Origin: Firmicutes bacterium HGW-Firmicutes-14
GTDB taxonomy: Bacteria; Bacillota; Thermincolia; Thermincolales; UBA2595
Assembly: GCA_002840275.1 (NCBI GenBank)
Contig: PHAB01000003.1
Location: forward strand, 124,001 to 188,000
Reading direction: 5' to 3'
DNA: 64,000 bases
Positions 27,018 to 36,462 of the stretch are shown here, piece by piece. The position numbers and the translations under genes were made by a program. The notes below the pieces were generated by a model that was not told where the DNA came from, made no database searches, and saw only the letters and a list, made by a program, of their open reading frames with translations. Each line of letters opens with the position of its first letter. Position 1 is the stretch's first letter.

Positions 27018-27161
27018 TTGTCAAAGGAAGTTATCAACAAGATTTTGGAAGAGATAGGACTGGAATCTTTAAACAGGCATGAACAGGGGGAAGGGGAAGG
27101 GAAAAAAGATGTAACCACCAAAATACCAAGAGAAAGAAACACAGAAGGGAGTGTCCCGTAA
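27018..27161 (+). CDS. Short protein of 47 aa, unknown
   Basis: A possible small gene: TTG start with GGAGGGG seven bases upstream and a helix-like N-terminus (SKEVINKILEEIGLESL) followed by a charged, probably disordered tail. No family is recognised. Its TAA stop falls inside the loop of the terminator hairpin at 27146-27363, which E1 splits. An overlap with the terminator is unusual but compact. It could equally be a chance frame with a good ribosome site. Confidence 0.5.
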   Translation: MSKEVINKILEEIGLESLNRHEQGEGEGKKDVTTKIPRERNTEGSVP

Positions 27162-27369
27162 TAGGCCTGTTGACAAATGGTCACTAGGTAAACTTAGGCA
27201 GGAAGGGTGTGTTCCAGAGAGCGAGTCTGATGTCTGCCGTCCCAAGAGCGCGTGAGCGCGATTGGTTAGACGGCTGAATCGTTGCCGCTCGAAGGAATTC
27301 ACCCTTCCTGCCTTGTTCTTCCCAAACTGTATTTGTCAACAAGCCCCGTAATGGGCACTCCCTGTTTTT
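27146..27369 (+). terminator. Rho-independent terminator split by element E1
   Basis: The left arm AGGGAGTGTCC (27146-27156) and the right arm GGGCACTCCCT (27353-27363) are complementary, and GTTTTTA follows. Without E1 they form an 11-bp stem with the six-base loop CGTAAT. E1 now lies in this loop, which keeps both arms intact. Confidence 0.75.
27163..27346. mobile_element. Structured inverted-repeat element E1 (no ORF)
   Basis: A 184-bp element whose ends are inverted repeats (AGGCCTGTTGACAAAT at the left, the complement of GGGCTTGTTGACAAAT at the right), with a further inner inverted repeat AGGCAGGAAGGGTG / CACCCTTCCTGCCT. CGTAAT stands directly on both sides (27157-27162 and 27347-27352), a 6-bp target duplication. 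The core holds small hairpins such as AGAGCGCGTGAGCGCG. Its complement shares GCGGCAACG and CAGACTCGC with E2, so E1 lies inverted relative to E2. It encodes no transposase and would move, if at all, in trans. Confidence 0.75.
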
Positions 27370-27410: not shown

Positions 27411-27485
27411 TGGTGCGCCCGGTAGGAATCGAACCTACGCTCCAGGTTCCGGAGACCTGTGCTCTATCCACTGAGCTACGGGCGC
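27411..27485 (-). tRNA. tRNA-Arg (anticodon CCG)
   Basis: The complement folds into a full cloverleaf: 7-bp acceptor stem GCGCCCG/CGGGCGC, D-arm GCTC/GAGC, anticodon stem CAGGT/ACCTG with loop CTCCGGA (anticodon CCG, reading CGG), T-arm GTAGG/CCTAC with TTCGATT, and an encoded CCA end. It is single, downstream of E1 and opposite to its neighbours. Confidence 0.97.
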
Positions 27486-27633: not shown

Positions 27634-29973
27634 ATGGGACGGATCCTAAAACAAGTCTCCAAAATATCAGGAGTTTATGGACAACCCGGCGAGGAAAAGG
27701 TGTCCCGGATTCTTGCTGAAAAACTGCCGGATGATTATGTTGTTTTAAACTCACCGCGTATATATTACCATGGCGCAACTATTGATATTGACCATATTGT
27801 GATAGGCCCTAACGGGGTATTTGTTATTGAAACCAAAAACATGCAGGGACTGATTATGGGCGGTCTCATGGGGAACTGGGTCCAGGAGAGAAAAAGGACC
27901 GGGAAGAACAGGAAAGTAAAGATAGGTAACCCCGCAAACCAGGTGAACCAGTATGGCAAAATTGTCAGGTCATACCTTGGTTCCCGTTTTTCTTATGAAA
28001 CAGGCAGCAAGATTAATATAAAGGTATATCCGGTAGTGGTGTTCGTAAATGAGGACATAGACCTGTCCCAAATAGTGCATACAAAACCAGGGTATGTGGG
28101 AAGGGTAAAGGTTTTAACAATAGATGAACTTATAGACTTTATTGAACGGCGGGAAGGAGGGTCATACTCTCCTGAAGAGATCAGCATGTTTGCCGAACTC
28201 GTTGTACCTGAAAACCAGAGAGACCAGACGGTTTACTATTCCCTTGAGGAACTGAAAGAATATAATGAGGGTTCTGATTCCCGGTATGAAATTTTTGAAG
28301 AACTTGGCCAGGGGAGTTTTGGCGTTGTTTACCGTGGCTTTGATTATAAACTTGATGAGGAGATTGCTATCAAAATCCTGCCACTGTCAAAACAAAACAT
28401 CCAAAATGCCGTTGGCCGTTTTTACAGGGAAGCAAGAATAGCATCAGGGCTTCATCATGAAAACATTGTCGGGGTCAATGACTATTACGAAAAAAACGGT
28501 GAATATTATATTGTCATGGAGTTTATTGATGGTATGACTCTGGATAAATATAAAAGGGAAAATACGGTATCTGTCCCTGAAGCCCTGAAAATAACCGGAG
28601 AGGTCTGTAAAGGACTGGTATATGCTCATGAAAAACAGGTCATTCACAGGGATCTGAAACCGTCAAATATTTTAATTTCTTATGACGGTAATGTTAAAAT
28701 TACAGATTTCGGAATTGCCAAAATTGCAGATTCAAAAGACTTGACCCTTGAAGGTACAGGAGCCGGTACACCTATTATCATGTCTCCGGAGCAAATTTCC
28801 GGGGCACCGGTTACTGAAAAATCGGACATATTTGCCGCCGGGTCCCTGTTATATTATTTAGTAACCGGTAAAATGCCCTTTGATGGAGAGCATATCGGGG
28901 AGATCTTGCAGAAGATTACCCGAATGGAACCTGTATCTCCCAAAAAATATAACAGTGAAGTGTCAGATGACCTTGAATATGTTATTTTGAAAGCCTTAGA
29001 AAAAAATCCGGAGGACCGTTTCAAAAATGCCGCCGAATTTCTGAAGGCGGTGGAAGAATTGTTAAACACAGGGAAGCTCACTTCCCGCCCAGGTAAAAAA
29101 CGATGGCTAAAAATATTTCCGGGAAAATTCAGACCTTTTATGAGGTCTGAAAGGAGCCTGTTCACTACCGTTACAATAGTAAGCCTGGTAGTTTTTATCG
29201 GAATCCTGGGTTTGCAGGTATACAGGGATTCAAGGGAACTGGCCAGAGAGGCAGTCCTGACAAAACAATACGGTTTTACCAATGAAAACCTTCAGCTTCT
29301 TTATGAAAACCCCAGGTTGTATATGGGACTGCCGATAAATGTGGTGGGGAGGATTGACAAGGTTATCCAGGTAAACCAAAACAATACCCAGTTCAGCGTA
29401 TCAGTCAAGATAAGCGGACAATCAGGAAACGAGTCTTTAATAATCAGTTACAATCAACCCCATTTTTCCCTGCAGTTTGCTTCATATGTCAAAATAACCG
29501 GCAGTATCCAGCATATCAGCAGAATTCAGAGTAATAAAGAAACACCGGTGGTTATTGCCGATAAAGTTGAAGCGATAGAAGACCCATGGTCTATTCTGGC
29601 GCCATCGCAATATACAATATATCCTGACAAAACTGCTCAACAGAACGGAAAAGTGGTCCACCTGGAAAAGGTAGAATTTGCGGAACAGGAAACCAGGTTA
29701 TATGTGCGGGTAAGGAATGAAGCAGATACCAGCGAGGTACTGGTGCTCTCAAACCCGGTCGGTTTTCAGGAGGGGACCGAATACCACGAGACAAAAAATA
29801 ATTATGGGTGGGATTTCCCGGCGATAATCCAGCTGCAGCCCCAACAGGAAGCAAGGGGAGTGATGTTCCTGGAACCAATGGACAGGCACAGAAACGCTGT
29901 AACTTTTGTCCTGGGGTCAACCAACGATATTTTAATGGGTCAGAAACCTTACGTCTTTGACGTAAAATGGTAG
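27634..29973 (+). CDS. NERD domain-serine/threonine kinase membrane fusion protein
   Basis: A 779-aa fusion. Residues 15-140 form a NERD (nuclease-related) domain (TIDIDHIVIGPNGVFVIETK, with the D...ExK pattern of the endonuclease-like fold). Residues 215-475 are a Hanks-type kinase with a complete motif set: GQGSFGVVYRG, AIKIL, HRDLKPSNIL, DFGIAKI, SPEQISG. A single membrane helix at about 507-530 (LFTTVTIVSLVVFIGILGLQ) leads to an outer domain of about 240 residues of beta type. So it is a transmembrane receptor kinase with a cytoplasmic nuclease-like module. The substrate is unknown; phage defence or signalling are possible. The ATG follows GGTGGGGAG. A terminator closes it as a single-gene unit. 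Confidence 0.9.
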   Translation: MGRILKQVSKISGVYGQPGEEKVSRILAEKLPDDYVVLNSPRIYYHGATIDIDHIVIGPNGVFVIETKNMQGLIMGGLMGNWVQERKRTGKNRKVKIGNPANQVNQYGKIVRSYLGSRFSYETGSKINIKVYPVVVFVNEDIDLSQIVHTKPGYVGRVKVLTIDELIDFIERREGGSYSPEEISMFAELVVPENQRDQTVYYSLEELKEYNEGSDSRYEIFEELGQGSFGVVYRGFDYKLDEEIAIKILPLSKQNIQNAVGRFYREARIASGLHHENIVGVNDYYEKNGEYYIVMEFIDGMTLDKYKRENTVSVPEALKITGEVCKGLVYAHEKQVIHRDLKPSNILISYDGNVKITDFGIAKIADSKDLTLEGTGAGTPIIMSPEQISGAPVTEKSDIFAAGSLLYYLVTGKMPFDGEHIGEILQKITRMEPVSPKKYNSEVSDDLEYVILKALEKNPEDRFKNAAEFLKAVEELLNTGKLTSRPGKKRWLKIFPGKFRPFMRSERSLFTTVTIVSLVVFIGILGLQVYRDSRELAREAVLTKQYGFTNENLQLLYENPRLYMGLPINVVGRIDKVIQVNQNNTQFSVSVKISGQSGNESLIISYNQPHFSLQFASYVKITGSIQHISRIQSNKETPVVIADKVEAIEDPWSILAPSQYTIYPDKTAQQNGKVVHLEKVEFAEQETRLYVRVRNEADTSEVLVLSNPVGFQEGTEYHETKNNYGWDFPAIIQLQPQQEARGVMFLEPMDRHRNAVTFVLGSTNDILMGQKPYVFDVKW

Positions 29974-36200: not shown

Positions 36201-36462
36201 AACAGGGCTGTCCAAATAATGGGCTTGTTGACATAATAATCAGTCAAAAAAGGGGATGGGCATATTCCAACGGGCGGCAACGTCTCCGCCGGCAGCGTCT
36301 CCCGCTTCGCGGGTCTACCCCAAGGGTACCGCCAGCTCTTGGCGCTTTAGCGCCTAGAGCTGGCATGGTCGGCCGGACGGATGACAGACTCGCCCTTGTG
36401 GAACATGCCCATCCCCTTTAAGTCCTGCTAATTATGTCAACAAGCCCATAAGTGCTGTTTTG
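36201..36462 (+). terminator. Terminator split by element E2
   Basis: AACAGGGC at 36201-36208 and the right-hand GTGCTGTTTTGTTTTT from 36452 can form an 8-bp stem with one mismatch and a T-run. E2 lies in the loop, just as E1 lies in the loop of its terminator. Confidence 0.55.
36221..36447. mobile_element. Structured inverted-repeat element E2 (no ORF)
   Basis: A 227-bp element with 17-bp perfect terminal inverted repeats beginning GGGCTTGTTGACATAAT. A second inverted pair lies inside (GGGGATGGGCATATTCC against GGAACATGCCCATCCCC). The core holds a CCCGC/GCGGG hairpin, a GCCAGCTCT/AGAGCTGGC hairpin with inner GGCGCTTTAGCGCC, and shared motifs with E1 and E3. ATAAT precedes and ATAAG follows, an imperfect possible duplication. 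There is no transposase. Confidence 0.75.

Follow-up and report, generated by a model that had tools for sequence, protein, structure and literature searches.

A palindromic, transposase-less element in a terminator loop of a Firmicutes genome: likely insertion with duplication of the loop

Introduction

ERIC, Correia elements, RUP and BIME/REP are short, non-coding, intergenic and palindromic sequences, which occur in many copies per genome and can carry internal insertions. We know of no case in these families of an insertion at a hairpin tip that duplicated the loop. Group IIC introns are retroelements which land at terminators and attC hairpins and insert after the stem. An association of group IIC introns with integrons has been described (PMC7923331), and insertion sequences have been described for which the repeated REP palindrome is the target (PMC1525189). 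IS1272/TnSha1, a member of the IS1182 family from Staphylococcus, shows no sequence preference when it enters hairpins, most of which are transcription terminators; it measures 1.9 kb, encodes a transposase of 548 aa, removes or replaces the stem-loop, and does not create a target duplication (PMC4923244). In the model of Wan et al. (2017, PMC5678879) one branch, with joining at the loop borders, duplicates the loop only.

Here we analyse an element, E1, in a window of 64,000 nucleotides from Firmicutes bacterium HGW-Firmicutes-14 (contig PHAB01000003.1, positions 124,001 to 188,000). An earlier note on this DNA had described E1 as an inverted-repeat element that had entered the loop of a terminator between two copies of CGTAAT. 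We examined the locus, its counterparts in related genomes and the repeats to which E1 is related.

Results

Structure of E1

The borders assigned to E1 in the earlier note proved to be correct when the sequence was checked, and so did the flanking CGTAAT copies and the slightly changed left end: the two 16-bp termini, AGGCCTGTTGACAAAT and ATTTGTCAACAAGCCC, match at 14 of 16 positions (Table 1). E1 is 184 bp long and has no transposase gene. Upon its removal the flanks rejoin as AGGGAGTGTCC-CGTAAT-GGGCACTCCCT-GTTTTT, with CGTAAT as the whole of the 6-nt loop. The terminator with its T-run had thus been recognised rightly, except that it was called perfect: one of the stem pairs is T-G. Folding of the rejoined flanks gives a stem of 11 bp (-20.4 kcal/mol, z = -6.2). 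What the earlier note had missed is that E1 itself is almost wholly palindromic and contains a conserved inner hairpin of a repeat family. E1 and the host arms make up a single 224-nt hairpin of -119.6 kcal/mol (z = -11.6, equalled by no shuffled sequence; z = -13.2 for the opposite strand).

Table 1. Positions in the window of E1, E2 and neighbouring features
Feature	Position	Strand	Remarks
Upstream ORF, 47 aa, TTG start, LSKEVINKILEEIGLE-type	27018..27161	+	TAA stop inside left CGTAAT copy
Left arm of host terminator, AGGGAGTGTCC	27146..27156	+	pairs with 27353-27363
Left copy of duplicated loop, CGTAAT	27157..27162	.	direct repeat with 27347-27352; loop of reconstructed terminator
Element E1, 184 bp, probable palindromic MITE, type-A ends	27163..27346	.	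folding; 87% identical copy elsewhere; missing at the site in six relatives
Left terminal inverted repeat, AGGCCTGTTGACAAAT	27163..27178	+	14/16 matches to right end
Inner hairpin (core) of E1, family model R1; internal loop GGCWACRAYTCAG ... GAYRTCAGAC conserved	27193..27317	-	R1 match, 125.7 bits (E1 is among the 13 sequences used to build R1)
Right terminal inverted repeat, inward reading GGGCTTGTTGACAAAT	27331..27346	-	sequence, end-pattern search
Right copy of duplicated loop, CGTAAT	27347..27352	.	sequence, direct-repeat survey
Right arm of host terminator, GGGCACTCCCT	27353..27363	+	sequence, folding of rejoined flanks
T-tract after right arm, run of 5 T	27365..27369	+	sequence
tRNA gene, directed towards E1 from the right	27414..27485	-	Rfam RF00005, 71.5 bits
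Second element E2, GGGCTTGTTGACA at both ends, same core family	36221..36447	.	end search; R1 core match
Additional 52-nt insert close to the tip of the E2 core, TACCCCAAGGGTACCGCCAGCTC...GAGCTGGCATG	36316..36367	.	also in other cores

The orthologous site in relatives

The order of the locus, with a small ORF, a terminator, a tRNA gene in the opposite direction and a kinase gene, is conserved. Homologues of the 47-aa ORF precede a terminator and tRNA-Arg in relatives (L055-L060), and the tRNA also adjoins their empty terminators. In six relatives (G002, G003, G004, G007, G008 and G009) the site is occupied by a short element-free hairpin, such as AAAAGCGCCGTTACGGCGCTTTT (G004) and AAAAAAGCGCCATTATGGCGCTTTTTT (G008). 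E1 is therefore an insertion in the lineage of the window and not a fixed RNA gene, which, according to the earlier note, would have been suggested by the same structure at this position in all relatives. The empty site foreseen there was recovered in part: the element-free hairpin is present, and a bare terminator with E1's own stem and the loop CGTAAT was not found at the site in the six relatives. The exact pre-insertion site was not seen because the stems of the relatives' terminators (e.g. AAAAGCGCC... or AAGCACC...) differ in sequence from the arms of E1.

The protein kinase gene (27634-29973), whose N-terminal region looks nuclease-related, is conserved in the family together with the small ORF and the tRNA. 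At its 3' end the reverse case was observed, with an element in G004, G007 and G008 and a plain hairpin in E1's own genome, G002 and G009.

Elements with the same ends

Other copies with the ends of E1, which the earlier note had proposed to look for, do exist: dozens of short elements with GGGCYTGTTGACAAAT ends lie at unrelated sites in four genomes of the family (E1's own, G001, G003 and G006). The end sequence occurs in 4 of 399 genomes of the phylum, all of E1's family, a narrower spread than that of the core described below. In its own 3.65-Mb genome E1 has one near-full copy (87% identical, G000:C15:32064-32248) and dozens of partial matches. Exact GGGCTTGTTGACA was found at three places in the window, the right end of E1 and both ends of E2. 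The core of E2 (contig 160245-160422, window 36245-36422) is of the same family, and the hairpin in which E2 sits is terminator-like but imperfect, has the stem AGAAACAGGGCTGTCC / GTGCTGTTTTGTTTTT and comes with a T-tract. Elements with paired ends are 86-319 bp long, and no transposase lies in any of them. G001 has type-A ends around an unrelated inner hairpin or around almost nothing (elements of 86-105 bp).

Among the copies of the same ends in G001 (L207-L237) there are dozens with another inner hairpin (GAGGGGATGGCTGTTCGC...) and a GGGCTTGTTGGCAAAT variant, and the contigs of this genome often terminate in elements with E1-type ends. A search of viral contigs with the end pattern gave 13 single matches and zero pairs, which were taken as chance. 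No relevant paper was found in a literature search for the end sequence.

Search for a transposase

An autonomous partner, in the form of a full-length IS bearing E1-type ends, was found neither in the 399 genomes of the phylum nor in nine genomes of the family, where repeat-broken assemblies could hide a parent. Scanning inward from unpaired ends revealed no gene between such ends and no autonomous partner. A search of the family for PF05598 gave no autonomous partner and no match in E1's own genome. The IS1182-type gene of G001 is without E1-like ends. G001 also has an IS5-family element (C52:17409-18884, L245; NF033578), whose ends, GGGCCTGCTGAACAGG, resemble GGGCYTGTTGACAAAT in their first bases, and which lies inside the inverted repeat TTAATTAG / CTAATTAG. 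This match is too short for a parent-MITE pair, a search of 81 genomes with the IS5-type protein gave no autonomous partner, and E1's own genome has no member of this protein family. As a source of the transposase the IS5-type element of G001 is only a lead. Relatives of it with similar ends were seen in G032 and G040.

Sequences at the junctions

For the survey of junctions we used a non-redundant set of 34 type-A elements, drawn from four genomes; the control consisted of all combinations of a left flank with the right flank of another element. Of the 34 elements, 9 had direct repeats of 5 nt or more, as against 1.6% of the mismatched flank pairs, a comparison in which the composition is matched and the elements are not independent. 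When L188, whose repeat is the by-product of a palindrome, is left out, repeats of 5-13 nt remain in 8 elements, about 0.5 being expected; with a threshold of at least 6 nt the count is 7 (6 without L188) against 1.0% of the controls. A junction stem score of at least 21 was reached by 9 elements versus 2.9% of the controls (one expected), and the mean pairing energy of the joined flanks was -20.8 kcal/mol versus -14.3 kcal/mol. By folding, the direct repeat is exactly the loop at E1 and coincides with it to within 1-4 nt at L221:241, L226:317 and L178:1502, while the hairpin reconstructed for L230 is weak. Examples of the junctions are AGCGCAAAGGCTACCC-CTACTTTTG-GGGCAGCCTTTGCGCT and AGAGAGACTGTCC-CTAAAG-AGGCAGCCTCTCT. 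Long inverted flanks and no repeat were noted at L186 (19 bp), L035 (11 bp), L200 (at least 20 bp) and, by eye, L188 (12 bp).

In about half of the 34 elements both signatures, the direct repeat and the strong junction stem, are missing, partly as a result of decay or of ends wrongly picked by the script (L034). The 6-bp target duplication, correct for E1, is not a rule of the family, where the repeats vary between 5 and 13 nt and many copies have none. Similarly, insertion into terminator loops, suggested in the earlier note as a targeting choice, stands as a preference (the minority at hairpin tips is significant) and not as a rule, as roughly half of the elements have no strong stem.

In one terminator of E1's own genome, AAAGGGCGTGTCCC...GGGACATGCCCTTTTTTT (L192, G000:C5:92788), the loop holds only a remnant of one element end; decay within a terminator loop seems to be tolerated.

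The core hairpin family

The partial matches of E1 in its genome correspond to the common inner hairpin. Thirteen core copies align almost without gaps, their internal loop is nearly invariant, and compensatory changes (both sides altered, pair kept) were found in 28 of the 43 consensus pairs. Model R1 recognised about 50 distinct places in E1's own genome (83 matches, with the reverse strand of palindromes included), between 11 and 55 matches per genome in the eight further family genomes examined, and 15 in the one genome of a sister family of the same order; it had no match in 51 other genomes of the phylum. Within the sampled phylum the core family is restricted to the family and order of E1. 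An Rfam search over the E1 region, at gathering and at permissive thresholds up to E 10, returned the tRNA only, with no match to E1.

Type A, to which E1 and E2 belong, has GGGCYTGTTGACAAAT ends around the core; type B has inverted arms instead, which are related to GTGTCCCATAAGTAAATGGGGC and in part make small terminators themselves. The 52-nt tip insert is present in several cores, at 13 places of the genome. Every one of these is in a core or a core remnant, which rules out that the insert is an independent REP-like element. From the two kinds of nesting and the tip inserts, it is clear that we are dealing with palindromes nested in palindromes.

The core copies have convergent neighbours in 25 cases, co-directional in 20 and divergent in 7. 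It must be noted that these counts are approximate, the classes being based on simple longest-ORF finding, by which E1 was misplaced as divergent. On a circular chromosome convergent and divergent gene junctions are equal in number, thus 25 against 7 reflects a real bias to the 3' ends of genes. The orientation of the cores is near random (12 vs 13 between convergent genes, 14 vs 6 among co-directional ones), which speaks against an oriented RNA gene.

For at least 12 core copies of G004, a copy in G007, another species of the same genus, matches on both flanks, so many core copies must be old; core copies other than E1 are thus common to species within a genus. In 7 of 12 such loci (L266-L311) the core is 96-99% identical and the flanks, mostly genes, 88-91%. 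This conservation beyond that of mostly coding DNA suggests constraint or homogenisation. In three pairs (L267/L304, L269/L288 and L281/L292) the tip palindrome was swapped as a unit, both arms together, with the outer hairpin unchanged. Because of such exchanges between orthologous copies, paired changes alone are not proof of selection on an RNA.

Discussion

The insertion reading is largely supported for E1: it likely inserted into the loop of an existing terminator. E1 is, in our opinion, probably a non-autonomous element derived from an IS, a MITE, which inserted at the tip of a cruciform under the guidance of DNA structure, and whose transposase is elsewhere or has been lost. It shares with MITEs the small size, the lack of a transposase gene, the common terminal inverted repeats, and an insertion scar with element-free sites in relatives. 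The cruciform as target, the type of the transposase and the preserved termination are what we infer from these data. A transposase recognising GGGCYTGTTGACAAAT ends would insert the element at the tip of a hairpin or cruciform in the DNA. If the strands were joined at both borders of the loop, gap repair would copy the loop (CGTAAT at E1) to each side; joining elsewhere on the stem would leave inverted-repeat flanks and duplicate nothing. The commonest perfect inverted repeats are intergenic terminators, and this would account for the bias to gene 3' ends. As E1 is one long palindrome, it could fold within the loop and the host stem could close beside the T-tract, so termination should survive; judged from folding, it is plausible that the host terminator was left working.

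Terminators fill much of the intergenic space, and one could argue that E1 landed where it did by chance or by an ordinary target preference, for instance for AT-rich intergenic DNA, with a duplication of loose length. Elements with neither hairpin nor repeat (L193, L053 and L177) fit this explanation, and an intergenic location by itself would bring many insertions close to terminators. We nevertheless consider it unlikely, because mismatched flanks from the same intergenic spaces have junction-centred stems about ten times less often, the repeat falls in the loop where both are present, and a duplication varying from 5 to 13 nt would be unusual for a single DDE transposase. Still less probable, in our judgement, is that the outer "terminator" arms belong to the repeat family, E1 being one level of a modular nested palindrome which grew or was copied as a whole. 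Arms similar to GTGTCCCATAAGTAAATGG do surround other cores (15 matches versus one in the reversed control), the arm of E1, GGGAGTGTCCC, resembles them (recurrent GTGTCCC type), in type-B copies the arms of GTGTCCCATAAGTAAATGG-like sequence are inverted and not direct, and the tip palindromes of some shared copies have been exchanged as a unit in relatives. In contrast, the outer arms of type-A elements are entirely different in sequence (AGCGCAAAGGCT, ACAAGCCTTCC, GGAGCCGGCTAA, AAAAACAAAAAG), whole-palindrome copying would not be expected to produce the direct CGTAAT repeat, and all six relatives have some terminator at the E1 site.

The conservation of the core brings up another explanation, that it has a function, as a structured RNA or as a site in the DNA (for instance a gyrase or nucleoid site of the BIME type, a stabiliser of mRNA 3' ends or an sRNA), and that E1 is one of its dispersed copies. 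The compensatory changes, the nearly invariant internal loop, the G004/G007 loci in which the core is more similar than the flanks and the location at gene 3' ends are all in its favour. We find it very improbable for E1, since the orientation to neighbouring genes is near random, Rfam has no match even at E 10, the E1 copy is missing from the site in all relatives, and exchange of whole tip palindromes can produce paired changes.

Insertion of a MITE at a hairpin tip can be carried one step further, to a DDE transposase which reads shape, inserts at the borders of cruciform loops and creates duplications as long as the loop. Palindromic passengers would then be selected, each new hairpin would still terminate transcription and be a new target, and nesting would proceed through several levels. 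We offer this as a speculative extension, possible and rather doubtful. Insertion at loop borders can be tested, as the length of the duplication should track that of the loop. That a palindrome in a terminator loop would leave a working terminator offers a simple reason why such an insertion should be harmless. With about 50 copies per genome, strongly conserved pairing and no Rfam entry, the core family deserves annotation; otherwise it would come up as a new RNA in searches for structured RNAs.

The E1 elements are of a known kind; as a family they are new, and the outcome at the target is unusual. The family differs from ERIC, Correia elements, RUP and BIME/REP in being unrelated to any Rfam sequence and nested several levels deep. 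Unlike group IIC introns, E1 has inverted ends, lies in the loop and has no ribozyme match in Rfam, and whereas the REP target, as described for the insertion sequences that use it, is defined by sequence, here the stems differ from site to site. The nearest behaviour on record is that of IS1272/TnSha1, with which E1 shares the hairpin or terminator as target; L186, L035 and L200, with inverted-repeat flanks and no duplication, are also alike. E1, however, is non-coding, has a length of 184 bp and lies between two copies of the loop, in a genome where no match to a PF13751 protein was found. Of the features of the IS1182 family, neither a related transposase nor removal of the stem-loop with no duplication was found for E1; the latter would fit L186 and L035. 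E1 and several of its relatives look like natural cases of the loop-duplicating branch drawn by Wan et al. (PMC5678879), and the copies with inverted flanks fit the other branch.
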